64,000 bases of DNA. Source: Lutibacter flavus (GTDB taxonomy: Bacteria > Bacteroidota > Bacteroidia > Flavobacteriales > Flavobacteriaceae). Position 1 is the stretch's first letter, and each line of letters opens with the position of its first letter. Of this stretch, positions 2 through 51,585 are shown in pieces. The position numbers and the translations under genes are program-made. The stretch is from assembly GCF_900188355.1 (NCBI RefSeq), contig NZ_FZNX01000001.1:147671-211670 (forward strand), written 5' to 3'. Below the pieces are notes generated by a model. The model saw only the letters and a program-made list of their open reading frames with translations, was not told where the DNA came from and did not search any database.

Positions 2-3000
2 TATCATATTTATGGTGATGGAGCAAAACCATCTTATTATAGAATAGTACGTAAAGATGCACCAACAATTGAGCTAACTGGAAACGTTGATATTACATCA
101 GCAACAGAAATTCCTTCAGATTTTGCTATTAAGTTTATGAATGCCGCAGGTAAGACTTGGGAAACTACAGTTATTGATGGAGCATACCAAATAGAATTAG
201 CTATTGATGCTACTTACGCCATTAGTTTAGTAAATGCAGATGGATACGAAATAGTTGGTAACTCTTTGCTAAGCATTGATGAAAACACAACTACTCTAGA
301 TATAACTATTATTGCAACTCCAAACGGATTACCAGATGTTTGGGATTTTGGAGCAGCGCAATTAGATGTAGCAAATTACAACAACATATTAACCGAAGAT
401 ACTATCAACGCTTGGTATGAAGGAGTTGATCCAGGTACCGAAGGGATAAAAATACCTGATACTTTCACTAATGGTGTATTAACTTGGGTTGGTCAAGCAG
501 ATAAAGATAGATTAAGAAGTTCTAATACAAATCTAACTCGTTATGATTCAGATGCAAAATCTGAAGAATATGCAGGAAGATTCTATATAAATTCATCTTC
601 TACAAGTCGTTATTTTAGTATAGAACTAAATGAAGGTGATGAGCTTACAATTTTCGCTTCATCGAGTGCAGATCAAGGTGAAATTCATTTTGTAAATGCA
701 GATGAAAATGAAGCTCAAGATGATGTATTACAATTAGCAAAAGAAGGAGAGAGTGTTAGTGAGGTTAAAGTTATTGCAAAAACAACTGGAACATATCATA
801 TTTATGGTGATGGAGCAAAACCATCTTATTATAGAATAATACGCAGTGATGCACCATCAATTGAATTAACGGGTAATGTAGATGCTCCTAGTGATATTTC
901 TGCAATTTATTCAATTCAGTTTACAAACGAAGATGGTCAGTCATGGGAAACTTTTGTTACTGATGGAATATATCAAATTAATTTACCAATTGGTAATACT
1001 TACAATGTTAGTTTAAACAATGCAGATGAATATGCAATTACAACAGATACTTTATTAAGTGTTGACGAGAACACAACAACACTTAATGTTACAATCTTAA
1101 ACAAAAAAGATTTACCTGTTAGTTTACCAAATGTTTGGGATTTTGGAGCAGAACAACTAGATGAAGCTCTATATATTAATATGTTGAATGAAGATGCTAT
1201 CAATGCTTGGTATAGTAGCGATATCGAAGTTGGTTCATCAGGAAATAACATTCCTGATTTTACTTCTGGAATATTAAGTTGGACAGGTAAGCCAACATCA
1301 GATAGATTAAGAACTACAAATACAAACTTAACTCGTTATGATGAAAACACATCTGGGGTTGAAGGATTTACTGGTAGAATATATGTGAATGGAGGAGGAG
1401 TTAGAACTCGTTTTATTAGTCTAGATTTAGATGAAGATGATGAAGTTACACTATTTGGAATATCTCAAAATGGTAATGGTAATTTTCATTTTGAATATGT
1501 AAATAATCCTTCTGTTCAAGATGATGAAATGGCAGTAGGTGCAGATATCACTGAAATAAAATGGGTTGCAAAAAATTCAGGAACTTATGAAATTTATGAT
1601 GCAGTTGATAAACCAAGTTATTTTAGAGTTATTCGTACACCAGCAACTTATGTTTCATTAAAAGGAGATGTTGATACTTCTTTAGCAGAAAATATACCTA
1701 CTGGATATACTTTATTATTTACTAATGAAGCAGGTAAATCTTGGGAAACTTCACCTAGTGGCGGAAAATATTTAATAGATTTACCAGCAGGTTATTCTTA
1801 TGAAATGAGTGTTAACAATGCAAATGGATTTATTATTACTAGTGAAACAAATGTTAGTTTAGGAGAAACAACTACTATACATAATATTATTATTCAAGAA
1901 GTAGATCTTTATGAAGTTTCTGGTTCAATCGAAGGTCTAGGATCTAACATTGCAAATCTTAACTTAATTTATACTGTAGATAGTGAAGCCGACACATCTT
2001 TCGAACCAGAATCTGTAATTGATTTTGAAAATAGTACTTACACAGTACAATTAGAATCCGATATCGAATATACTATTTCAGCAGAAGGAGTGAATGATTA
2101 TACAATTCCTGCAAATACAATTACGATTTCAACTAGTGATACAACAGCAAATGTTGTTTTTGAAGAAAAAGCAACTTATGCGGTTACTATTGAAACTCCA
2201 GGATTAGACACAGAACAACAAGGTAAACTTTCAATAACATTTTCTAATTTAAATGAAACAGATTATAGTTATACATTTGATGATATAGCTGCTGTTTCTT
2301 TAAGAGATGGAGTATATGCAATTACGGTAGATGGTTTAGATGAATATCCTATTGAGCTTGCACTTACTTCAAATTTAGAAATAGCTGGCGCTATAGCAAC
2401 TAAAACATTAAACTTCAAACCAGTTACTAATTGGGCTTTTGATGATAAAATTATTACATCAAGTACTGCTTTTTATAAAGGATTATCATTTACTGGAACT
2501 GCTGGAACTATTAAAAATGAAATGGCAAAAGGTCATTTAGTATTTAAAACAGGAGGAGAAATTAATGTACCTCTTCAGCCTGGAGAAAAAATGATTGTTT
2601 CATATTATTATGCTGCAGATTTCTCTATTGAAGGAGGGACTGCAATAACTACAAATAGTGGAAGTACTTCTAATTTAGAAACAGTTGAGTATTTATATAC
2701 TGGAGATGTTACTGGTATAGCAACAATATTAAGTAATGCTACATCATATATAACTAACATCGCCGTTGTAACAGTAGTTGACTACACTCCTGAAATAAGG
2801 GTTGGTGTTGATAAGGATTTCCAAACAATTAATGGAGCTCTTAAAGCTATTGCACAAATGGATAGACCAAATAATGAGCGTGTAACTGTATTAATTGATG
2901 CAGGTAATTATGAGGAAATGGTAGTGATTAATAATCCTAACATTACTTTAAAAAATGACTCTCAGGAACCTAGTATAGAATTAACAAATAATGGAGTAGA

Positions 3001-4939
3001 TATTGATGATAATGCCGTACGTATCACTGCTTATTACGGTTATGGATACAACTACTTTAGTCAAGGTACAGATAACAAATGGAGTGCAGAATCTTTAGAA
3101 GTAAACAAAGCAAATGGATATCAAGAGTATACAAATGTTTCAGGTACAACAAATGCTTCTTATTGGAATGCAACTTTAGTTGTTTCTAGTGATGGATTTA
3201 TTGCTGAAGATATTATTATTGAGAATTCATTTAATCAATACATTTCTCAAAAAGAATCTGAAGATGTATTAGTATTAGCAAGTGGAAATAAAGGTGTAAG
3301 ACCAACTAATTATGGTAATACAGATGTTCAAAATCGTAGTTTCGTAGAGCGTGGCGCCGCAATTGGTGTAGCAAATGGTACAGACAAAGTGATCTTAGAT
3401 AAATGTTTGGTTGTTGGTAGACAAGATACTTTCTACGGAGGTTCTGATTCCAGATTAGTAGCCTACAAAGGTGCTATGATGGGCGCTGTTGATTATATTT
3501 TTGGTGGTATGACAGCAGTATTTTATAAAACTGATTTAGTTTTGAATACAAGTGATACTAGTGGTGATGCTGCTTATATTACAGCTGCTCAACAAGGAAG
3601 TGGTAGAGGTTTCTTAATGTATGAATGTAATATAATATCAACAGTTCCAGGTGTAAACACAGCGTCTACACAAGGTGCTAAACCAGGCTTTTTTGGAAGA
3701 CCTTGGCAACCAACAACAAGTGAAGTTGTATTCTACAATACCAACATAGATGTATCTACATACACTGGTTTTGCAGGAAAATCTTTGATTGATGCTGAAG
3801 GTTGGAAAAACTCATTAGGTGGAGAATCTGCTTTTATGTATGAGTACGGAACTAAAGAGAGTTCAGGTGAAAACAATTCAGGTAACCGTGCATCTTGGTC
3901 TACGGTATTATCTGCACCAACACTTACAGACGGTAAGGAAATAACTACATTCAATTTTACAAAAGGTAATGATGATTGGGATCCAATTCCTAGCCTTATT
4001 GAAAATGAAGATTCAGACAATGATGGAATATTGGATTCAGTAGATAACTGTATTAATACTTATAATCCGGATCAAGCAGATTTTGATAATGATGGAATTG
4101 GTGATGTTTGTGATGATAGTGATTTAGATGGTTTAGTGGATAGTGAAGATAATTGTCCAAATTCTGCTGAAGGTGTTACTATTGATGTATTTGGATGTGA
4201 AGTATTTGAACTTGGTGCAGAGAGCTTTAGTTTAGTTGCTACTTCTGCTTCTTGTAATGGAGGAGGTGACGGATCAATTAATATTAATGCATTAAATACA
4301 GATTACACTTATAATGTTTCTGTTAATGGATCTAGCACTAATGAAACCGGAACTTTATCTTCATCTAATGGATATACTTTAGATATTACAGGTCTTAATC
4401 CTGGAGCGTATGAAGTTTGTATTACAATTGAAGGAAAAGATAATTTCGAACAATGTTACAACGTAATTATTGAAGGTCCAGCACCACTTGACACATTCGC
4501 AACTGTAAATAAAGCTAATAATCAAATTACTTTAAACTTAGATGGTGCTTCTCTTTATTATGTTAATCATAATGGAAATTTAACAACAACTACTAAATCA
4601 ATTGTTGTAATTGATTTGGTTGCTGGTAAAAATACAGTTGAGGTTACAACAGATTCTTCATGTCAAGGTAAATATTTCGAAGAGATATTTGTTTCAGAAG
4701 AGGTTGTTGTATATCCTAACCCAACAAAAGGGCATCTTCAAGTTTTTGTTGAAGGTATAGATACTAATGTTGATGTAATGTTGTTTGACCTTAAAGGAAA
4801 TCAGTATATATCAATATCTAAAAGTGTTCCTTCTAATAGGGTAATAGAGCTTGACTTAACGAACTTAAATACTGGAGTGTATTCACTTTCGTTAAATTCA
4901 GATACAATTCGTCAATCAATAAAAATCATTAAAGAATAA
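2..4939 (+). CDS. Giant secreted pectin methylesterase (CE8) with T9SS sorting domain, 5' partial
   Basis: The frame is open from the first bases of the window, so the N-terminus lies outside; the ATG at 137 is internal. The protein removes methyl esters from homogalacturonan. Counting from that ATG, residues 1 to about 590 are tandem beta-rich repeats of about 264 residues (each with VWDFGA, TNLTRYD and KPSY motifs), followed by further Ig-like segments. The CE8 beta-helix spans about 885-1290, with GRQDTFYGG near 1094 (catalytic Asp), DYIFGG near 1118 (catalytic Asp) and GRPWQP near 1188 (substrate Arg). Thrombospondin type 3 calcium repeats ([18 protein letters not shown]) lie at about 1293-1350. 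The last 80 residues ([10 protein letters not shown], ending in IKIIKE) are a type IX secretion C-terminal domain, so the enzyme is exported and probably cell-attached. More than 1640 residues is far above the usual 300-400 for CE8. The PL9 gene follows after 6 nt. Confidence 0.93.
68..1905 (+). repeat. Tandem coding repeats of about 792 bp in the CE8 protein
   Basis: Equivalent codons recur at 68 (IELTGNVD), 860 (IELTGNVD) and 1652 (VSLKGDVD), giving two full units with a period of 792 bp and a third that keeps only its first subdomain, to about 1905. Bases 1-67 are the tail of an earlier unit that is almost identical to 793-859. Each unit encodes an Ig-like subdomain (TNE-G-SWET core) followed by a beta-rich subdomain beginning VWDFGA. 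A small indel inside the unit shifts the middle motif by 3 bp. Confidence 0.85.
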
Positions 4940-10564: not shown

Positions 10565-11614
10565 ATGAATAATTCTCCAATAAAAACCGCTTTATGTTCA
10601 TTTGGAATGAGTGGTGTTGTTTTTCACGCGCCTTTTATTTCTGTAAATCCTAATTTCAATTTGTATGGAGTTTTAGAAAGGACAAAAAACCTAGCGCAGG
10701 AGAAATATCCAACTATAAAAACATTTAGAACATTGGAGACAATGTTAGCAGATGAAAATATTGAATTAGTTGTTGTTAACACACCAAGTGTAACTCATTT
10801 TGATTTTGCAAAGCAAGTTATTAATGCAGGTAAAAATATAATAATAGAAAAACCAATTACCGCAACTGCAAAGCAGGCGGAGGAGTTAATCAAATTAGCA
10901 AAAGAGAAAAATGTAATGCTTTCGGTTTATCAGAATAGAAGGTATGACAGTGATTTTTTAACGGTTAAAAATATATTGGATCAAGGAATACTTGGCGAAA
11001 TTATAGAAGCAGAGATGCATTATGATCGTTTTGAACCAGGTTTAAGTTATAAAGTTCATAAAGAAACTCCAACTGCAGCCACAGGGACTTTGTATGATTT
11101 GGGCTCACATCTAATTGATCAGGCTTTGGTGTTATTTGGTTTGCCTAATTCTGTTTTTGCAGATTTAGACACCTTTCGTTTAAATTCAAAAGTAGCAGAT
11201 TATTTTGATGTTAAATTGATTTATGATTCACATCGTGTAACTCTTAAATCTAGTTATTTTGTGAGAGAATCGTTGCCAGGAAATATTTTTCATGGTAGAA
11301 ATGGTTCTTTTATTAAATCTAAAGCTGATATTCAGGAAAAAGAGTTGCAAGCTGAAAAAAAGCCAGGAACTACTGATTGGGGAATGGAGCCTGAAAGCGA
11401 AAACGGATTATTGCATACAGAGAAGGATGGTAGAATTATAATGGAATATATCCCAACCTTAAAAGGAGATTATATGGAATATTATGATGGAATTTATGGG
11501 GCAATAAGAAATAATAAATCAGTACCGGTTTCTGGAGAAGATGGTAAAAATGTAATTAAAGTTATTGAAGCCGCAATTAAAAGTAATAAAGAAAAAATGG
11601 TAATTCAACTATGA
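10565..11614 (+). CDS. Gfo/Idh/MocA oxidoreductase, IolW/YdgJ-like, cytoplasmic
   Basis: NAD(P)-dependent sugar or polyol dehydrogenase family. The N-terminal Rossmann domain starts with SFGMSGVVFHAPF, the variant dinucleotide-binding loop typical of the IolW/YdgJ branch. EKPIT near residue 94 is the conserved EKP motif. YDLGSHLIDQ near 178 carries the conserved DxxxH region. No signal peptide is present, so it acts in the cytoplasm, unlike most of its neighbours. Its stop overlaps the GH43 start by 4 nt (ATGA), implying translational coupling. Likely role is interconversion of a sugar or uronate released by the upstream enzymes; the substrate cannot be read from the sequence. Confidence 0.85.
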   Translation: MNNSPIKTALCSFGMSGVVFHAPFISVNPNFNLYGVLERTKNLAQEKYPTIKTFRTLETMLADENIELVVVNTPSVTHFDFAKQVINAGKNIIIEKPITATAKQAEELIKLAKEKNVMLSVYQNRRYDSDFLTVKNILDQGILGEIIEAEMHYDRFEPGLSYKVHKETPTAATGTLYDLGSHLIDQALVLFGLPNSVFADLDTFRLNSKVADYFDVKLIYDSHRVTLKSSYFVRESLPGNIFHGRNGSFIKSKADIQEKELQAEKKPGTTDWGMEPESENGLLHTEKDGRIIMEYIPTLKGDYMEYYDGIYGAIRNNKSVPVSGEDGKNVIKVIEAAIKSNKEKMVIQL

Positions 11615-13236
11615 AAAAAAAAATAGCAATTTTGTTTTTATTTAGTTTTGTTTGTATAATGGCACAACAAACGGAAACAATTTCGCAAGTTTGGGTTGCA
11701 GATAATGGAGATGGTACCTATAAAAATCCAATTTTATATTCAGATTATTCCGATTCCGATGTTGTAAGAGTTGGAGATGATTATTATATGACTGCTTCCA
11801 GTTTTAACGCGGCTCCAGGATTGCCAATCTTGCATTCAAAAGATATGGTGAACTGGAAATTAATTAACCACGCATTACAAATACAAATTCCAGATGAAAC
11901 ATTTAAAGTACCACAACATGGAAATGGTGTTTGGGCACCAAGTATTCGTTATCATAATGATGAAATTTACATTTATTGGGGAGATCCGGACTTTGGAATT
12001 TATATGGTGAAAACGAAAGACCCTTATGGAAAATGGGAAGATCCTATTTTAGTTATGGAAGGAAAAGGATTGATAGACCCTTCTCCTCTATGGGATGATA
12101 ATGGAGAAGTGTATTTAGTGCATGCATATGCAGGAAGTAGAGCTGGTGTTAAAAGTTTATTAACTGTCAATAAAATGAATCCTGAAGGAACTAAAGTTAT
12201 AGATAAAGGGATTCATGTTTTTGATGGTCATGATAATCATGACACTGTGGAAGGTGCAAAATTTTATAAGAGAAATGGTTATTATTATATTTTTGCTCCT
12301 GCAGGAGGTGTTGCAACAGGTTGGCAACTTATTTTAAGGTCAAAAAACATTTATGGCCCTTATGAAGAAAAAGTAGTTTTAGAACAGGGTAGTACAAATA
12401 TAAATGGCCCACATCAAGGCGCATGGGTTGATACTCCGAGTGGGGAATCTTGGTTTTATCATTTTCAAGATGTTGAAGCCTATGGAAGAATAGTGCACCT
12501 GCAACCTGTTGTTTGGGAAAAAGATTGGCCAGTAATGGGACAAGATTTTGATGGTAATGGTATAGGTGAGCCTGTTATGTCTTATAAAAAACCCAATGTT
12601 GGGAAAATTTATCCCATTGAAACACCTGTGGAAACAGATAATTTTGATAATTTTAATATAGGACTTCAATGGCAATGGAATGCAAATCCGAATGTTTTGT
12701 GGCATGCTAAATTACCTGGAAACGATTTTTTAAGACTTTTTTCAATTAAATCTGTTGAAGACTCAGAAAATCTTTGGATGGTCCCAAACTTATTACTTCA
12801 AAAATTTCCTGCTCCAAATTTTACAGCATCAACCAAAATTTCATTATATCCTGAAGAAGCTATAAGTGGTAAAACAGCCGGACTTATAATTATGGGAATG
12901 GATTACGCAACATTAAGTATATCTCATGACGAAAACGGGTATTTTATTAAACAGACAGAAGCAATTGGTGCTATAAAAGGTGTTGAGGAAAAAATAATTT
13001 CAGAAAAAAGATTGAAATCGAATTCAGCTTATTTTAGGGTGGAAGTAACTGCTCCAGATGCTATGTGTCAATTTAGTTATTCTGAAGATGGTAATAAATT
13101 TAATAAAATTGGAAAACCTTTTAAAGCGCAACCAGGTAAATGGATAGGCGCAAAAGTTGGAATATTTAATGTTAGCACACAAGAAGCCAAACGTGGAGGA
13201 TATGCTGATGTAGATTATTTTAAAATAACAAAATAA
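11611..13236 (+). CDS. GH43 exported arabinofuranosidase/xylosidase
   Basis: Five-bladed beta-propeller glycosidase with a signal peptide (core FLFSFVCIMAQ). The GH43 triad is visible: the base Asp in YSDSDVVRVGDDYYM (about 45-60), the pKa-modulating Asp in GLIDPSPLWDD (about 152) and the acid Glu in TVEGAKFY (about 213). A C-terminal beta-sandwich of about 190 residues (GLQWQWNANPN, PGNDFLRLF) is the GH43 C2-type domain. The architecture fits the beta-xylosidase/alpha-L-arabinofuranosidase branch near subfamily 12. In this pectin block arabinose side chains of rhamnogalacturonan I are the likely target. It overlaps the preceding gene by 4 nt and is followed after 10 nt by the DUF5060 protein. 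Confidence 0.88.
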   Translation: MKKKIAILFLFSFVCIMAQQTETISQVWVADNGDGTYKNPILYSDYSDSDVVRVGDDYYMTASSFNAAPGLPILHSKDMVNWKLINHALQIQIPDETFKVPQHGNGVWAPSIRYHNDEIYIYWGDPDFGIYMVKTKDPYGKWEDPILVMEGKGLIDPSPLWDDNGEVYLVHAYAGSRAGVKSLLTVNKMNPEGTKVIDKGIHVFDGHDNHDTVEGAKFYKRNGYYYIFAPAGGVATGWQLILRSKNIYGPYEEKVVLEQGSTNINGPHQGAWVDTPSGESWFYHFQDVEAYGRIVHLQPVVWEKDWPVMGQDFDGNGIGEPVMSYKKPNVGKIYPIETPVETDNFDNFNIGLQWQWNANPNVLWHAKLPGNDFLRLFSIKSVEDSENLWMVPNLLLQKFPAPNFTASTKISLYPEEAISGKTAGLIIMGMDYATLSISHDENGYFIKQTEAIGAIKGVEEKIISEKRLKSNSAYFRVEVTAPDAMCQFSYSEDGNKFNKIGKPFKAQPGKWIGAKVGIFNVSTQEAKRGGYADVDYFKITK

Positions 13237-14883: not shown

Positions 14884-16008
14884 ATGACAATAAATAATAT
14901 AAAATCAATTTGTTTTTATGCACTTTTTTTAATTATTGTAACTAATGTTCAGTCCCAAGTACATAATAAAAAGTGGGAAAGTATTACGAATAAAGAAGAA
15001 GGTTCTTGGTTTGCTTCAAATGAAGCCAAAGAAATAGCTGAAAATGTATTGTTGTATCAAAGAAATATTGGTGGATGGGAGAAAAATATCCAAATGCACA
15101 AACCATTATCGGATGATGAAAAGCAAGAACTGATAGATCTTAAAAATTCAACAAAAGGTTGCACAACAGATAATGGAGCAACCTATCAGGAAATGATTTT
15201 TCTTTCTAAAATGTACAGACAAGTACCTGATGAACGGTATAAAAAGGCATTTCTTTTAGGCTTAGATTATATTTTAGAAGCACAGTATAATAATGGAGGA
15301 TGGCCTCAATATTATCCTTTAAGAAAGGGATATTATACGCACATTACGTATAACGATGATTCCATGGTTAACATTTTAAAGGTACTGGAAGAAATTAAAA
15401 ATAAAACGAATTATTTTTCAATTAAACCATCTGAAGAAATAATTGAGAGAGCTAAAATTGCTTTTGATAAAGGTATTGATTGCATTATAAAAACTCAATA
15501 TAAGCAACATGGTGTTTTAACAAGTTGGTGTGCACAACATGATGAAAATACTTTAGCGCCAGCCAAAGCTAGAGCCTATGAGTTGCCTTCTTTAAGTGGA
15601 AAAGAATCAGCTAAAATTGTGTTGTTGTTAATGACTCTTGAGAATCCATCAGAAGAGATAAAGATAGCTGTAAATAGTGCTGTAAAATGGTTTGAAAAAG
15701 TTCAAATTAATGGACTTCGTGAAGATCGAATTTATAATGAAAAAGGTAAAATTATTAATAAAATAATGGTTCCAGATGAAAATGCGAAACCAATTTGGGC
15801 TCGTTTTATGGAATTGGATGATAACACTCCTTTTTTCTGTGATCGTGATGGAATTAAAAAAGCAACCTTGGCTGAAATCGGGGCAGAACGTAGAAATGGT
15901 TATGCCTGGTATACAAATGAACCTAAAGAAGTTTTTAAGAAATATGTCAAGTGGAAAAAAAAGTATACTGTTTCAAAAGATAAAATTGAAACTGTAAAAA
16001 AAAACTAA
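14884..16008 (+). CDS. PL10 pectate lyase (first half of a probable PL10-CE8 protein)
   Basis: Calcium-dependent pectate lyase of family PL10. A signal peptide (core CFYALFLIIVTNVQSQ) is followed by the (alpha/alpha) toroid. Diagnostic motifs are NGGWPQYYPLRKGYYTH near 138, HITYNDDSMVN near 151 and WCAQHDENT with PAKARAYELPSLSG near 214-238, the last carrying the Arg expected to act as base. The frame ends in gta aaa aaa aac taa. Those last bases form the heptamer A AAA AAC (15999-16005) followed at once by TAA. A -1 slip there continues directly into the CE8 domain, giving a product of about 679 residues. The lyase domain itself looks complete, so it would also work alone. Confidence 0.88.
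   Translation: MTINNIKSICFYALFLIIVTNVQSQVHNKKWESITNKEEGSWFASNEAKEIAENVLLYQRNIGGWEKNIQMHKPLSDDEKQELIDLKNSTKGCTTDNGATYQEMIFLSKMYRQVPDERYKKAFLLGLDYILEAQYNNGGWPQYYPLRKGYYTHITYNDDSMVNILKVLEEIKNKTNYFSIKPSEEIIERAKIAFDKGIDCIIKTQYKQHGVLTSWCAQHDENTLAPAKARAYELPSLSGKESAKIVLLLMTLENPSEEIKIAVNSAVKWFEKVQINGLREDRIYNEKGKIINKIMVPDENAKPIWARFMELDDNTPFFCDRDGIKKATLAEIGAERRNGYAWYTNEPKEVFKKYVKWKKKYTVSKDKIETVKKN
15990..16008 (+). other. Probable -1 frameshift site (A9 run, slippery heptamer A AAA AAC before TAA)
   Basis: The PL10 frame runs to the stop at 16006-16008. The CE8 frame has a stop (TGA) at 15987-15989 and is open from 15990 on. A change of frame must therefore happen within about 16 bases, and this interval holds a run of nine A (15996-16004) and a textbook X XXY YYZ heptamer read in phase. 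I see no strong stem-loop just downstream. One missing A in the assembly, a real point deletion, or transcriptional slippage on the A-run would give the same picture. Confidence 0.6.
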
Positions 16009-16922
16009 AAAATGAATATAATGTAATTGTTTCTAAAGACGGAAGTGGAGATTATACCAGTATTCAGGAAGCAATTAATAATTCTAAATCTTTCCCTTAT
16101 GAAAGAGTAATTGTAAACATTAAAAACGGTGTTTATAAGGAGAAAGTTCATGTGTATTCATGGAATACAAAAGTTTCATTTTTAGGTGAAAGTAAAGAGC
16201 AAACAATTATTACTTATAATGATTATTTCGATAAAATTAATTTAGGTAGAAATAGCACTTTTCATTCATCAACAGTTTTAGTTGAAGGGAACGATTTTAT
16301 TGCTAAAAATTTAACTATTCAAAATACTGCAGGTGAAGTTGGACAAGCAGTTGCTTTAAGTGTAAATGCAACCAGAGCGCTTTTTGAAAACTGTGCATTT
16401 TTAGGTTATCAAGATACAGTTTATACAGCTGGAGAAGGGTTTAAGCAATATTTTAAAAACTGCTATATTGAAGGGAGCACCGATTTTATATTTGGAGAAG
16501 CTACTGTTTTGTTTGAAGATTGTACGATTCATAGTAAAGCAAATTCTTATATTACAGCAGCATCAACACCTGAAAATCAGAAGTTTGGTTATGTTTTTAA
16601 AAATTGCAAGTTAACAGCAGATGAAAATGTGACAGATGTTTATTTAGGAAGACCTTGGCGAATTTATGCTAAAACGGTCTTTATAAACTGCGAAATGGGA
16701 ACACATATAAAACCAGACGGTTGGCATAATTGGGGTAAAAAAGACGCCGAAGAATCTTCATTTTATGGAGAATACAATTCTATTGGAGATGGTTCCAATC
16801 CTACTAAAAGAGTTTTATGGTCCCATCAACTTAAAAAATCCAAAGCAAAAAAATATACTGCTAAAAATATTTTAGTTGGTAAAAAAAATAGGGATTCAAA
16901 TCCAATTTGGTATAATAATTAG
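16005..16922 (+). CDS. CE8 pectin methylesterase (second half of a probable PL10-CE8 protein)
   Basis: Homogalacturonan methylesterase of the usual short form. The conserved N-terminal strand motif (VIVSKDGSGDYTSIQEAI) is encoded from 16023, upstream of any plausible start. The only conventional start is a GTG at 16152, which would delete that motif and leave no signal peptide. Numbered from the GTG, catalytic landmarks are YQDTVY near 85, STDFIFGEA near 109 and LGRPWRIYAKTVF near 164, so the active site is intact. The missing start and leader, and the continuous frame back to the A-run at the end of PL10, argue that it is translated as the C-terminal half of a PL10-CE8 protein that couples demethylation to lyase cleavage. 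Without frameshifting it would probably not be exported. Confidence 0.85.
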   Translation, partial: LKNEYNVIVSKDGSGDYTSIQEAINNSKSFPYERVIVNIKNGVYKEKVHVYSWNTKVSFLGESKEQTIITYNDYFDKINLGRNSTFHSSTVLVEGNDFIAKNLTIQNTAGEVGQAVALSVNATRALFENCAFLGYQDTVYTAGEGFKQYFKNCYIEGSTDFIFGEATVLFEDCTIHSKANSYITAASTPENQKFGYVFKNCKLTADENVTDVYLGRPWRIYAKTVFINCEMGTHIKPDGWHNWGKKDAEESSFYGEYNSIGDGSNPTKRVLWSHQLKKSKAKKYTAKNILVGKKNRDSNPIWYNN

Positions 16923-16962
16923 GTTAAAATATGTAAATCAAAAAATTAAAATATTCTTTATT

Positions 16963-18393
16963 ATGAATTCAAAAAGCAAAAATGAAATAACTCGCAGAAA
17001 ATTTGTTAAAACAGCTGGAGCTGCAGTTGCAGGATCAATGATAATTTCCCCGGCTTTTAGTAATATTTTAAATGAAGCAACCGGAAAGAAACGAGTTGCT
17101 ATGGTTGGAACCGGAAGCAGAGGAAACTCATTTTATGGTAAGTTTTTGAAGGAAGAATATGGCGATATAGTAGAATTTGTTGGTTTATGTGATATAAACA
17201 AAGGAAGACTTGAGTATTCTAAAAAAAATATTGGTGCTGATTGTCCAACATTTACAGATTTTGACGAGATGCTAAATACTGTTGATATAGATTTATTAAT
17301 GGTTATAACTGTTGATGCTACCCATCACGAATTTATTGTAAAAGGACTAAATAAAAATATTGATGTAGTTACTGAAAAACCAATGACTACCGATGAAGAA
17401 AAATGTCAAGTAATTTTAGATGCTCAAAGAAAATCAAAAGGAAAATTAATAATGGCCTTTAATTATCGGTACGGAAAGGTTTTTACAAAATTGAAAGAAA
17501 TTATTGAAACTAAAGAAATAGGAGATTTAATTTCAATTGATTTAAACTGGTATTTAAATACGTTTCATGGAGCTGATTATTTTAGAAGATGGCACGGAAT
17601 TAGAGATAAATCTGGAACTCTTTTATTACATAAATCTGCTCATCATTTTGATTTATTAAACTGGTTTATTGGATCGGATCCGGTTGAAGTTTATGCAAAT
17701 GGAGCATTAGAAAAGTATGGTAAAAATAACGCGTTTAGAGGCGAAAATTGCAGATCTTGTGAGCATACTAAAGAATGTGAGTTTTATTGGGATATCACCA
17801 AGAAACAAAAATACATGGATTTATATGTTCAGAATGAAAAGTACGATGGATATTTAAGAGACAATTGTTTATGGAGAGAGGAAATTGACATTTTCGATAA
17901 AATGTCCGTTTTAGTAAAATACGCTAATAATGTTGAGGTAACTTACTCACTAACAACCTACTCGCCATTTGAAGGATTTAGAATTGCTTTTAACGGGAAG
18001 GATGGAAGATTAGAAACTCATGAAGGGATTCCTTGGAGAAATACAGAAAATGAAGATGAGGCTAAACTTCATGAAAAGGAAATGGATAATTCTTCACATA
18101 CAAAAATGGAGCATAAATTTCATGAAATAGTTACGCAGCGTAACTTTAAAGACTATAAAAGAATAGAATTTCCATATGTAAGATCTGGACACTGGGGAGG
18201 AGACAAATTAATGTTTGATGAAATCTTTAGAAGTAAAAGTGTAAATCCTGCATTAAATCATCCTGCAAATGTTAGAGATGGTTCATTAGCCGTTTTAGTT
18301 GGAATTGCTGCACGTAAAAGTATTGATACTGGTATGCCAATAAAAATTGCTGATCTAACAGATTTAGTCCCTCAAATCAATAAATGGGGCTAA
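16963..18393 (+). CDS. Tat-exported Gfo/Idh/MocA oxidoreductase
   Basis: NAD(P)-dependent oxidoreductase family with a twin-arginine leader (TRRKFVKTAGAAVAGSM), implying folding with cofactor before export to the periplasm. The Rossmann domain has VAMVGTGSRGNSFYG near 37 and EKPMT near 130; HKSAHHFD near 226 fits the family's conserved His region. A cysteine-rich insert (CRSCEHTKEC at about 262-271, plus Cys in RDNCLWRE near 299) could bind a metal. The frame is open from TTG 16876, overlapping CE8, but ATG 16963 is preferred because it places the Tat motif at the N-terminus. Related exported members include GH109-like NAD-dependent glycosidases; whether this one cleaves a glycosidic bond is open. 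Confidence 0.82.
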   Translation: MNSKSKNEITRRKFVKTAGAAVAGSMIISPAFSNILNEATGKKRVAMVGTGSRGNSFYGKFLKEEYGDIVEFVGLCDINKGRLEYSKKNIGADCPTFTDFDEMLNTVDIDLLMVITVDATHHEFIVKGLNKNIDVVTEKPMTTDEEKCQVILDAQRKSKGKLIMAFNYRYGKVFTKLKEIIETKEIGDLISIDLNWYLNTFHGADYFRRWHGIRDKSGTLLLHKSAHHFDLLNWFIGSDPVEVYANGALEKYGKNNAFRGENCRSCEHTKECEFYWDITKKQKYMDLYVQNEKYDGYLRDNCLWREEIDIFDKMSVLVKYANNVEVTYSLTTYSPFEGFRIAFNGKDGRLETHEGIPWRNTENEDEAKLHEKEMDNSSHTKMEHKFHEIVTQRNFKDYKRIEFPYVRSGHWGGDKLMFDEIFRSKSVNPALNHPANVRDGSLAVLVGIAARKSIDTGMPIKIADLTDLVPQINKWG

Positions 18394-48783: not shown

Positions 48784-49656
48784 ATGGATAAAAATTTCCA
48801 CAGAGAAATTACACCAATAGCACCTGAAGATAGTTTTCAGGTTTTTGATCGTATAAAAGATGATTTTGATTTTCCTATTCATTTTCATCCTGAATATGAA
48901 TTGAATTTTATATTTAATGGAAAAGGTGTTAGAAGAGTTGTAGGGGATAGTATGGAAGAAATTTCAGAAATTGAATTGGTGTTAATTGGCCCTAATCTTG
49001 AACATTGCTGGGAATTGCACAATTGTAAAAGCAAAAAAATTAATGAAATTACAATTCAATTTCATAACGATTTATTTGATGATAAAATGCTTTCAAGAAG
49101 AATCTTTAAACCTATTAAAGATATGTTTGAAAGATCTAATTATGGGATTTTATTTTCAAAAAAAACTTCACATGATTTAAGAGAAAGAATACAGAAATTA
49201 TCTAAAATAGATAGTATAGATTATTTAATGGAGTTGATATCCATATTACAAGATTTGGCAAATTCTAGAAATCAACGTTTGTTGTCAACATATACTTCTC
49301 AAAATAAAAAATTTGAGAATAGTGATAAAATTAAAAAAGTATATGAGTATATACAGGAAAATTTTAACCATAAAATTTCACTATCAGAAATATCTGAAAT
49401 TGTAAATATGAGTCCGGTTACTTTTAATCGATTTATAAAAAAAAGAACAGGTAAAACTTTTGTGGAATATACAAACGATACACGAATTAGTTATGCCACC
49501 AGATGGTTAATAGAAACAGATTTAAGTATTAGTGAGATAAGCTTTAAATGTGGATTTAATAATATAGCCAATTTTAATAGAGTATTTAAAAAATGTAAAA
49601 GCGCAACACCAACAGAATTTAGAGAAAAGTTTGAAGGAATTAAGAGAGTTCTATAA
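48784..49656 (+). CDS. AraC-family regulator, first of three tandem paralogues
   Basis: Cytoplasmic transcription factor, 290 residues, no membrane segment. The N-terminal cupin-like sensor has FDFPIHFHPEYELNFI near 22 and IELVLIGPNLEH near 60. The C-terminal double helix-turn-helix covers about 190-290: first unit ISLSEISEIVNMSPVTFNRF, second ISEISFKCGFNNIANFNRVF, ending in the AraC signature TPTEFREKF. The gene is separated by 14 nt from the second paralogue. It follows GH9 by 209 nt of A/T-rich DNA with no obvious terminator. It probably senses a sugar released by one of the flanking blocks and activates them; which one is unknown. Confidence 0.9.
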   Translation: MDKNFHREITPIAPEDSFQVFDRIKDDFDFPIHFHPEYELNFIFNGKGVRRVVGDSMEEISEIELVLIGPNLEHCWELHNCKSKKINEITIQFHNDLFDDKMLSRRIFKPIKDMFERSNYGILFSKKTSHDLRERIQKLSKIDSIDYLMELISILQDLANSRNQRLLSTYTSQNKKFENSDKIKKVYEYIQENFNHKISLSEISEIVNMSPVTFNRFIKKRTGKTFVEYTNDTRISYATRWLIETDLSISEISFKCGFNNIANFNRVFKKCKSATPTEFREKFEGIKRVL

Positions 49657-49670
49657 CCTAAAATTTTAAA

Positions 49671-50534
49671 ATGAGTAGAATAATTAATAGAGAAATCACT
49701 CAATTAGAGCCGGAAAATGGATTTTTGGTTATTAAGAGAATGAAGCAAAAATTTGATTTTCCAATTCATTTTCACCCGGAATATGAACTTAATTTTATTC
49801 AAAATGGTAAGGGAGTTCGAAGAGTTGTTGGAAACAGCATGGAAGAGTTGGAAGAAATTGAGCTCGTTTTAGTTGGGCCTTATGTTGTTCATGGTTGGGA
49901 AACACACAATTGCAAAAGTGATAGTATTTATGAAATGACTATTCAATTTAATAATTCAGTTTTTGATGATGAACTACTTTCATTAAGAATGTTTAAACCA
50001 ATTAAAGATATGTTGGAGCGTTCTAAACATGGAATACTTTTTTCAAAACAAATATCACTGGAATTAATGCCTCAAATAAAGGAATTTACTAAAATTGAAG
50101 ATGTCAATGATTTTATTAAGCTATTAACACTTTTACAAGGTTTAGCAAATTCTAAAGATCAAAGAATGCTTTCTACTTCAGTTTCAAATAATAATGAATA
50201 TGAACATAGCAAACGAATTAAACTTGTGTATGAGTATGTTCAAGAAAATTATAATAGAAAAATATCATTGCCAGAAATTTCAGATATTGTAAATATGACT
50301 CCGGTTTCTTTTAATAGATTTATTAAAAAAAGAACGGGGAAAACTTTTGTGGATTATTTAAATCATACCAGATTAAGTTATGCAACTAAATGGTTGATAG
50401 AGACAGATTTAAATATAGGTGAAATAGGATTTAACAGTGGTTTTAATAATATTGCAAATTTTAATAGAATTTTTAAAAAATTTAAAAATTGTACTCCAAA
50501 TGAATATAGAATGAGATTTGAGAGAATCAATTAA
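49671..50534 (+). CDS. AraC-family regulator, second paralogue
   Basis: 287 residues, same layout as the preceding gene: cupin-like sensor (FDFPIHFHPEYELNFI, LVLVGPYVVHGWE) and AraC double helix-turn-helix (VNMTPVSFNRFIKKR; GFNNIANFNRIFKK). The recognition helices are nearly identical to its neighbours, while the stretch at about 95-185 has diverged. The second HTH carries GEIGFNSGF where the others have SEISFKCGF. It starts 14 nt after the first paralogue and is likely co-transcribed with it. Confidence 0.9.
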   Translation: MSRIINREITQLEPENGFLVIKRMKQKFDFPIHFHPEYELNFIQNGKGVRRVVGNSMEELEEIELVLVGPYVVHGWETHNCKSDSIYEMTIQFNNSVFDDELLSLRMFKPIKDMLERSKHGILFSKQISLELMPQIKEFTKIEDVNDFIKLLTLLQGLANSKDQRMLSTSVSNNNEYEHSKRIKLVYEYVQENYNRKISLPEISDIVNMTPVSFNRFIKKRTGKTFVDYLNHTRLSYATKWLIETDLNIGEIGFNSGFNNIANFNRIFKKFKNCTPNEYRMRFERIN

Positions 50535-50568
50535 ATATTTATACCTTGCTAATTCTTATTAAACCAAT

Positions 50569-50667
50569 TTAATCGTTTTTAACAAATTGGGTGAAATTAT
50601 TGTTTTTTACACCAATAATATGATATCCTTTTCCTTTTAATTTATAATAAGTTTTCATGTTTTTCAT
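50569..50667 (-). CDS. Possible 32-residue peptide between AraC genes
   Basis: A minus-strand frame ATG to TAA encoding a short basic peptide (starts MKNMKTYYKLKGKG, ends FVKND). It fills most of the 178-nt gap between the second and third AraC genes and its start abuts the shared motif at 50675. I do not recognise it. An open frame this short in A/T-rich DNA can arise by chance. Confidence 0.15.
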   Translation of the reverse strand: MKNMKTYYKLKGKGYHIIGVKNNNFTQFVKND

Positions 50668-50712
50668 TAAAAAGTTACTATTTTGTGTCTGAAATTTTTA
50701 ATATTATAAAGT

Positions 50713-51585
50713 ATGAGGAAAGGAATAAATAGGGAAATTACACAACTCGAACCTGAAAATGGTTTTTTGGTAATTAATGGTGTAAAACAAGAATTTGATT
50801 TTCCAATTCACTTTCATCCAGAATATGAGCTAAATTTTATTGTAAACGGAAAAGGTATAAAAAGATTGGTAGGGAATAGTGAAGAAGAATTAGATAATAT
50901 TGAACTTGTGTTGTTAGGGCCTCAATTATTACATGGATGGGAGACTTATAATTGTAAAAGTAAAAACATAATTGAAACAACCATTCAGTTTAATAATACC
51001 ATTTTTGATGAGAAATTACTTTCTTTGAAAATGTTTGAACCAATTAAAGATATGTTGGTGCAATCAAAAAACGGAATTCTATTTTCTAAAAAGACTGCAC
51101 TTAATTTAAAAAAAAGGATTCAATCATTATCTAAAATAGATAATATTGATAGTTTTATTATATTGTTAGGTATCCTTCAGGAGTTGGCTAATTCAAAAAA
51201 ACAAAGGTTACTTTCTACTTCAATTTCATATAATAATGAATATAAGCATAGTAAAAAATTAAAAATGGTTTATGATTTTGTTCAAGAAAATTTTCATCGT
51301 AAAATTTCTTTAGCAGAAGTTTCTGAACTAGTAGAAATGAGTCCTGTTACTTTTAATAGATTTATTAAAAAGAGATTTTGCAAAACTTTTATTGACTATG
51401 TAAATCATACTCGATTGAACCGCGCTGCAAATATGCTTGTAGAAACGGATTTAAATGTAAGTGAAATTAGTTTTAAATGTGGATTTAATAATATCGCCAA
51501 TTTTAATCGAGTTTTTAAGAGATTTAAAAATTCTACGCCAACAGCCTTTAGAGAGAAATTTGAAGGTGTAAGCAAAGATTTGTAG
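50713..51585 (+). CDS. AraC-family regulator, third paralogue
   Basis: 290 residues, again cupin-like sensor (FDFPIHFHPEYELNFI; LVLLGPQLLHGWE) and AraC DNA-binding domain (VEMSPVTFNRFIKKR; GFNNIANFNRVFKR). The turn after the first recognition helix reads RFCKTF instead of RTGKTF. A 178-nt gap and its own copy of the TTACTATTTTG motif suggest separate transcription from the other two. It is followed by a 324-nt intergenic region and then the CE2-type esterase, so it is the regulator nearest the mannan block. Confidence 0.9.
   Translation: MRKGINREITQLEPENGFLVINGVKQEFDFPIHFHPEYELNFIVNGKGIKRLVGNSEEELDNIELVLLGPQLLHGWETYNCKSKNIIETTIQFNNTIFDEKLLSLKMFEPIKDMLVQSKNGILFSKKTALNLKKRIQSLSKIDNIDSFIILLGILQELANSKKQRLLSTSISYNNEYKHSKKLKMVYDFVQENFHRKISLAEVSELVEMSPVTFNRFIKKRFCKTFIDYVNHTRLNRAANMLVETDLNVSEISFKCGFNNIANFNRVFKRFKNSTPTAFREKFEGVSKDL

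Follow-up and report, generated by a model that had tools for sequence, protein, structure and literature searches.

Two secreted pectinases of Flavobacteriaceae recurrently offset by -1 across a run of nine or ten A, a probable site of RNA polymerase slippage

In a 64,000-nucleotide (nt) stretch of DNA from Lutibacter flavus (contig NZ_FZNX01000001.1, positions 147,671 to 211,670; below called the window, with coordinates counted from its first letter), the frame of a family PL10 pectate lyase is followed in the -1 frame by that of a family CE8 pectin methylesterase, and a run of nine A lies where the two overlap. Comparison with relatives revealed that a -1 break at an A9-A10 linker between the two secreted pectinases is recurrent and conserved: it is present in 21 of 90 distinct PL10-CE8 loci from four genera, the offset is -1 in all 21, and no +1 break was found among the 90 loci. 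On this comparison recoding at the PL10-CE8 junction is well supported, as is a slippery linker that would yield the lyase alone and, in addition, a lyase-esterase fusion. Slippage of RNA polymerase on the A9-A10 run is the probable source of the two products. Three points are inferences: that it is the polymerase which slips, that the cell makes both products, and that it benefits from their ratio, the last being drawn from what is known of the enzyme families.

The PL10 frame of the window extends from position 14884 to 16008 (like all features of this locus, on the forward strand) and encodes 374 amino acids (aa). In the profile search it covered PF09492 at 1-291 of 292 (1.6e-109) and was above the cut-off of TIGR02474 (3.2e-101); corresponding PDB structures are 1r76 and 1gxm. 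Judged by eye, its N-terminus is a Sec-type signal peptide. The zero-frame product ends with the residues TVKKN, and its frame with GTA AAA AAA AAC TAA, in which the A9 run (15996-16004), the putative slippage site, partly coincides with the heptamer A_AAA_AAC in phase with PL10 (15999-16005), and the TAA at 16006-16008 ends the lyase-only product. The CE8 frame is shut by a TGA at 15987-15989, on the 5' side of the A9 run, and is open from 15990 to 16922. It harbours a CE8 domain at 16020-16880 (PF01095, 7.5e-79; PDB 1gq8, 3.8e-52), which is full-length, since PF01095 is covered at 1-297 of 298. Its QDT, DFIFG and LGRPW segments, which we take to be the catalytic ones, align with those of 1gq8. 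Thus, the arrangement described in the initial annotation, with an in-phase heptamer directly before a stop, a second frame opening only at 15990 and two intact domains, is confirmed. The statement that CE8 has no ATG has to be narrowed to the part ahead of the fold, because there is an internal Met in the motif CEMGTH. Ahead of the conserved KDGSGDY core the CE8 frame of the window contains neither ATG nor GTG nor TTG, and no signal-like leader. The first start codon in this frame is the GTG at 16152, which, as already noted there, comes after the KDGSGDY segment.

The 90 loci remained after removal of 9 exact duplicates and contain both domains side by side. Set aside were loci without this arrangement, 60 more distant CE8 loci (L061-L120; individual loci are given L numbers), none of which has PL10 directly upstream, the background stretches L182-L201, and L222-L254, which are mostly from genomes already sampled. 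Two loci, the broken L137 and the fused L221, have no defined linker, and linker counts refer to the other 88. In Flavobacterium, 70 of 119 PL10 matches were examined (30 loci, 20 short-frame and 20 long-frame matches). The 20 short-frame matches gave 8 broken junctions and 12 PL10 genes without CE8 behind them. Since short frames were over-sampled in this genus, 21 of 90 overstates the share of the broken form; in the family sample, 20 genomes had a close PL10, and the broken form was present in 2 of them. The longest linker run in the broken loci is A10 in 14 (including L137) and A9 in seven. The remaining 69 loci are in-frame fusions with the same domains, order and linker position as in the window, in one open frame; their longest linker run is A9 in 12, A10 in 15 and A4-A8 in 41 of the 68 with a defined linker, so that 27 carry A9-A10. 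No linker run longer than ten A occurs in the 88 loci. In a class-level search, 12 of 395 genomes matched at E<=1e-90; judged by frame length, the open frames found outside the family (374-458 aa) were all too short for a PL10-CE8 fusion.

The broken junctions differ in detail from genus to genus. In Lutibacter, CE8 is present in 7 of 38 genomes; three of these loci are broken (A9 in the window, A10 in Lutibacter sp. HS1-25 and L. maritimus), and four have an in-frame PL10 junction, with A10 in L002, L005 and L006, and A9 followed by G in L007. Two of seven genomes of another genus, recognised as Wenyingzhuangia by an identical protein tail, contain the locus, and in both it reads GTA AAA AAA AAA GAC TAA with CE8 in -1. 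The Mariniflexile locus L127 is broken at GAA AAA AAA AAG TAA, while its congeners L126, L128 and L019 are fused. The fused sister L128 has A8 at the same place in the linker where L127 has A10, and simple contraction is therefore not an obvious source of every -1 state. In Flavobacterium, L132-L136 and L146 carry GAA AAA AAA AAG with the stop 3-6 codons further on, L162 has GAA AAA AAA AAG TAA, and the runs of L163 (A10) and L164-L169 (A9) are placed directly behind the conserved Trp of PL10. Besides its -1 A10 junction, L137 is broken a second time further upstream, within PL10 and close to a run of T, which may reflect either a decaying gene or an assembly error.

Two further observations concern the site behind the Trp. 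The window has an A8 run there (15955-15962), at the place of the A9 run of L164-L169, and this second run shares the linker with the A9 run described above. The fused L217 has A9 behind the Trp and another A9 further along. Among PL10 proteins (the best 120 of 1469 matches, in a search that excluded full-length fusions by length), 60 of the 120 end in WKKK plus up to six residues, like loci of the L164-L169 type, and in 32 of the 120 no more than six residues separate the C-terminus from a Lys run that is not at the Trp. Many of the WKKK-ending proteins, most of them available as protein only, may stem from broken PL10-CE8 genes in metagenomes of which just the lyase frame was read, and some may be true stand-alone PL10 enzymes.

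A tree of the 88 loci, based on concatenated PL10 and CE8 without the linker (a quick LG+G4 analysis), requires at least nine changes of the broken state, seven of them forced by starred branches. The broken loci fall into eight clusters: Wenyingzhuangia; L163-L169; L001; L003 with L004; L127; L162; L132-L136; and L146. The in-frame locus L219 lies within the L163-L169 cluster. The simplest reading of this tree would be eight gains and one return to frame; some of the changes may be losses, and fewer gains with more reversals, or transfer between genera, are also possible. The position of the run in the linker varies (five places), and so do the codons behind it, which speaks for separate origins. 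If there were eight separate gains, their uniform direction has a probability of 0.008 in a two-sided sign test (0.016 for seven).

The uniform offset also bears on the accuracy of the assemblies, which the initial annotation had considered together with a recent mutation as competing explanations. Homopolymers are error-prone, and an undercounted A run would indeed produce such a break. However, 21 assemblies agree in the offset, one of them being that of L166, where the locus lies on one 3.85-Mb contig, and 17 of the 21 broken loci belong to clusters of at least two (L137 was placed with L132-L136, its PL10 having 88% identity to the same query). An assembly error in the run is thus extremely improbable. 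Further, CE8 has remained under constraint. Its median ratio of nonsynonymous to synonymous substitution rates (dN/dS) in broken clades is 0.177 in Lutibacter, 0.065 in Wenyingzhuangia, and 0.060 and 0.092 in two Flavobacterium clades, the values in three fused groups being 0.135, 0.074 and 0.038; for PL10 in the same four broken clades it is 0.118, 0.079, 0.061 and 0.096. In all 88 loci CE8 is open for more than 260 codons beyond the core. These values indicate that CE8 of the broken clades is under purifying selection. As the offset recurs in relatives and CE8 is constrained, assembly error and recent mutation are both poor explanations.

It could also be that the two frames are separate genes, with CE8 made by reinitiation and left without a signal peptide, or that CE8 is decaying and not made at all. 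The overlap of stop and frame is compatible with reinitiation, and in 4 of 20 broken loci the CE8 leader contains a single ATG, GTG or TTG. The other 16, however, have no start codon ahead of the fold, and a hydrophobic stretch was not found by eye in any of the 20. By comparison, 11 picked CE8 genes without PL10 upstream (a set to which L008, L009, L039, L040 and some named loci do not belong) all start with ATG, and 10 of the 11 have a signal-like N-terminus as judged by eye. Decay, for its part, is at odds with the purifying selection on CE8. We consider separate or decaying genes very improbable, and the claim of the initial annotation that one gene gives a lyase and a lyase-esterase fusion by a -1 switch at the A run is supported, since the arrangement recurs and CE8 is constrained.

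Phase variation, in which the length of the A run in the DNA would change within a population and turn the fusion on and off, would fit a homopolymer of nine or ten A and the existence of in-frame and out-of-frame states in different species. It predicts +1 and -1 breaks in equal numbers, against 21 of 21 in -1, and two groups, of five and of six related loci, have the broken state in common. There is little chance that this is the explanation. Within clades, run length and offset are constant: the five Flavobacterium loci all have A10 in a 74-nt linker and the six others all have A9 (proportion of synonymous differences, pS, 0.48-0.62), and over all clades the constancy holds at pS 0.42-0.62.

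Two mechanisms can join the frames. At one side stands -1 programmed ribosomal frameshifting, in which tRNAs would re-pair one base back on A_AAA_AAN and translation would enter CE8. It would explain why all 21 broken junctions need -1, each of them having an in-phase A_AAA_AAA, A_AAA_AAC or A_AAA_AAG, and in eight loci (L127, L132-L136, L146, L162) the run ends with an in-phase AAG, the type of site found in Escherichia coli dnaX (PMC5009743, available portion). The folds downstream of the junction are on average slightly stronger in the broken loci (mean z -0.69) than in two sets of fused controls (-0.24 and -0.14). However, seven bases (A6 and G, or A7) would suffice for re-pairing, yet every broken junction has at least nine A, and the third codon of the heptamer is not constant but AAC, AAA or AAG. 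Folds with z < -2 are found in 2 of 20 broken loci, as compared to 1 of 27 and 1 of 25 fused controls, in a scan that covered folds other than pseudoknots. In E. coli dnaX, frameshifting also uses a 5' stimulator. A Shine-Dalgarno-like site is absent from 16 of the 20 broken loci and lies at differing distances in the other four. Because the run always has at least nine A, the final codon varies, the folds are ordinary and Shine-Dalgarno-like sites are few, we place transcriptional slippage first and regard ribosomal frameshifting as comparatively unlikely, although a joint contribution of both is possible.

On this point the outcome differs from the initial annotation, which had taken A_AAA_AAC directly before the stop as the signal and had named transcriptional slippage as a competitor. 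In the other broken loci the run ends AAA|C, AAA|G or AAG, and the stop follows 1-6 codons later. Comparison of homologues thus upheld a conserved run of at least nine A and a conserved -1 offset, a combination that suits slippage of RNA polymerase no less well, while no conservation was seen in the last codon of the heptamer, the adjacent stop or the stimulators. The ribosomal heptamer was accordingly rejected as a conserved element, run length and offset alone being conserved. Transcriptional slippage appears the likelier route of recoding, which sequence alone cannot separate from ribosomal frameshifting.

The distribution of A runs is in line with slippage of RNA polymerase. In the PL10-CE8 genes, 48 runs of at least nine A were counted in 6,829 nt of linker as compared to 3 in the remaining 168,189 nt. 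Lys-Lys-Lys is encoded entirely by AAA in 1 of 28 cases in the gene bodies and in 19 of 26 in the fused linkers (Fisher test, 7e-8, uncorrected for kinship). As background, we used 444 kb of DNA on one contig of the window genome, including the window, with 307 open reading frames (ORFs) of at least 150 aa that make up 366 kb. Here the observed counts and those after codon randomisation were 691 and 652 for A6, 257 and 264 for A7, and 77 and 93.3 for A8 (standard deviations 14, 11 and 6), and then 8 and 31.8 for A9, and 2 and 12.6 for A10, the target run included. The steep scarcity starts at nine A, which is the shortest run in any broken junction; such a drop in run counts has been taken as a sign of selection against slippage and used to judge the length at which it sets in (PMC1088944, in the part available). 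Of the ten runs of at least nine A in these ORFs, only the window run is followed by a long stretch that is open in another frame (305 codons, in -1); behind the other nine, at most 39 codons are open in either shifted frame. The fused linkers look released from a strong avoidance of A runs rather than enriched in them. Positive selection for all-AAA triplets in fused linkers is not claimed, as 19 of 26 is about neutral and the contrast is mainly due to depletion elsewhere.

Several of these data weigh against a programmed slippage device. An in-phase A_AAA_AAA is present in any run of at least nine A, and a strict -1 offset is what ribosomal frameshifting predicts. Deletion of an A by slippage would rescue +1 breaks, none of which were seen, and a bias towards insertion is thus required. 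The all-AAA fraction in the linkers is near the neutral expectation of about 0.61 (AAA makes up 85% of the Lys codons), and the run is perhaps merely tolerated. A8 is already somewhat scarce and A6 somewhat common (each by about 2.7 standard deviations), which leaves the threshold at nine steep, if not quite clean. The 41 of 68 fused loci without a run of at least nine A mean that the device is not universal. In Lutibacter, dN/dS of CE8 is slightly higher in the broken loci (0.177) than in the fused ones (0.135). Finally, in the fused loci with A9 or more, off-frame stops are no closer per frame than in other fused loci (p 0.23 and 0.51). Hidden stops in both off-frames were considered as a selected trait of these loci: a first comparison was suggestive, a fairer control from a fixed point showed no such difference per frame, and the trait is not claimed. 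The longer of the two off-frames measures 10 codons in the fused loci with A9 or more vs 21 in the others (p 0.0014, uncorrected for kinship).

Some of these points suit a reading without any benefit, in which A runs drift in a lax linker, breaks survive on the leaked fusion and two products are made to no purpose. The near-neutral share of all-AAA triplets, with the avoidance of A9 merely relaxed, would be expected from it, and so would the one apparent return to frame, L219. Yet species that have diverged to pS 0.42-0.62 agree exactly in run length and offset, even though instability would be expected of such runs; furthermore, no +1 break was seen, and none of the 68 fused linkers has an in-frame run above A10. 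Tolerated slippage is rather unlikely in our view; it differs from the reading we prefer in purpose and not in mechanism, and the confidence placed in the two overlaps. A programmed benefit is plausible.

According to the reading that we prefer, RNA polymerase would slip on the A9 or A10 run of the linker and produce mRNAs that differ in the length of the run. Transcripts with as many A as the template specifies would encode the secreted PL10 pectate lyase alone; those with one extra A would bring CE8 into frame and encode a secreted PL10-CE8 fusion. In relatives with in-frame DNA, the fusion would be the main product of such a run and the lyase alone the minor one. CE8 enzymes remove methyl esters from homogalacturonan, and PL10 enzymes cleave the demethylated chains. 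The ratio of the two products could be useful in that the fusion would demethylate pectin for a lyase that prefers the demethylated substrate and thus couple both steps, and the free lyase would act on pectin already demethylated. The ratio would be fixed by slippage, with one promoter and one signal peptide serving both products. One may go a step further and tentatively propose a recurrent dosage device: through the A9-A10 linker, RNA polymerase would determine how much lyase is made relative to lyase-esterase fusion. Changes of one or two bases would take a lineage from one state to another, the states being fusion-major with in-frame DNA, lyase-major with -1 DNA, and fusion-only where AAG interrupts the run, and both enzymes would stay under selection. 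We consider this larger proposal possible, with less confidence than slippage as such.

The surroundings of the locus form a carbohydrate-degradation cluster with GH43, GH88, a Pel9A-like protein, a GDSL esterase and other esterases. The GH43 gene (11611-13236) starts with ATG AAA AAA AAA ATA and has an A10 run directly after the start codon, at which slippage would throw the frame out immediately. A second, diverged CE8 domain (PF01095, 5.6e-22) is part of a protein of 1600 aa encoded at 137-4939, together with TSP_3 and a C-terminal sorting domain of type IX secretion. At 48784-51585 there are three similar tandem ORFs of 290, 287 and 290 aa, the first of which has an AraC-type helix-turn-helix; they are perhaps duplicated regulators of the cluster. 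Behind the lyase-esterase locus, an oxidoreductase ORF (16876-18393) is listed from a TTG inside CE8, and the ATG at 16963 is the likelier start. A tRNA scan gave no hit.

The PL10-CE8 junction is of interest for several reasons. Few ordinary chromosomal genes are documented to use slippage in a conserved manner, and in the present case eight clusters of a secreted carbohydrate-active enzyme of Bacteroidota show one type of break at one type of site. In annotation, a CE8 of this sort could easily be mistaken for a pseudogene or a fragment, and the fusion would then be overlooked. Last but not least, the natural in-frame, out-of-frame and run-less versions offer a simple system in which to see how slippage sets an enzyme ratio. 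No report of slippage at a PL10-CE8 junction was found in the literature searched by listing, most subscription papers and bioRxiv preprints being beyond reach, and the available portions of PMC3711429 and PMC5009743 do not mention 'pectate' or 'pectin'.

Known cases, as described in the accessible portions of the cited papers, share single features with the PL10-CE8 junction. In a survey of 108 bacterial genomes, seven cases of conserved overlapping ORFs with nine A's were found, six of them from insertion sequences and one mapW (PMC1088944). Parallels are found in tssM1 of Citrobacter rodentium, where slippage on A11 gives the longer form at a reported frequency of about 20-25%, and in tssM3 of Yersinia pseudotuberculosis, where it gives the shorter form at a reported 15-25% (PMC4256274). 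Like the PL10-CE8 loci, both produce two length variants by transcriptional slippage on poly-A, tssM1 corresponding to the broken and tssM3 to the in-frame loci. They differ in that tssM1 has A11 and a +1 shift instead of A9 or A10 and -1, and in that tssM encodes a secretion-system protein with experimentally shown slippage, whereas PL10-CE8 is a secreted two-enzyme protein of four genera known from sequence. In dnaX of Thermus thermophilus, slippage on an in-frame A9 gives a shorter product beside the full-length one (PMC1088944). This resembles the in-frame A9-A10 PL10-CE8 loci with their presumed shorter and full-length products, and differs from the window in that the products are DNA polymerase subunits and the DNA itself encodes the full-length form in a single frame. 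The two overlapping ORFs of Shigella flexneri mxiE are joined only when slippage adds a nucleotide (PMC1088944); the overlap is like that in the window, but the run is of U and the product is a transcription activator. Finally, E. coli dnaX has in common with the window a site of the A_AAA_AAG type and two products from one gene (PMC5009743, PMC1088944). In that gene, however, there is a stem-loop (PMC5009743) and the shift gives the shorter product, whereas in the broken PL10-CE8 loci no common stimulator was seen, and their predicted shift would lead to the longer one, the lyase-esterase fusion.

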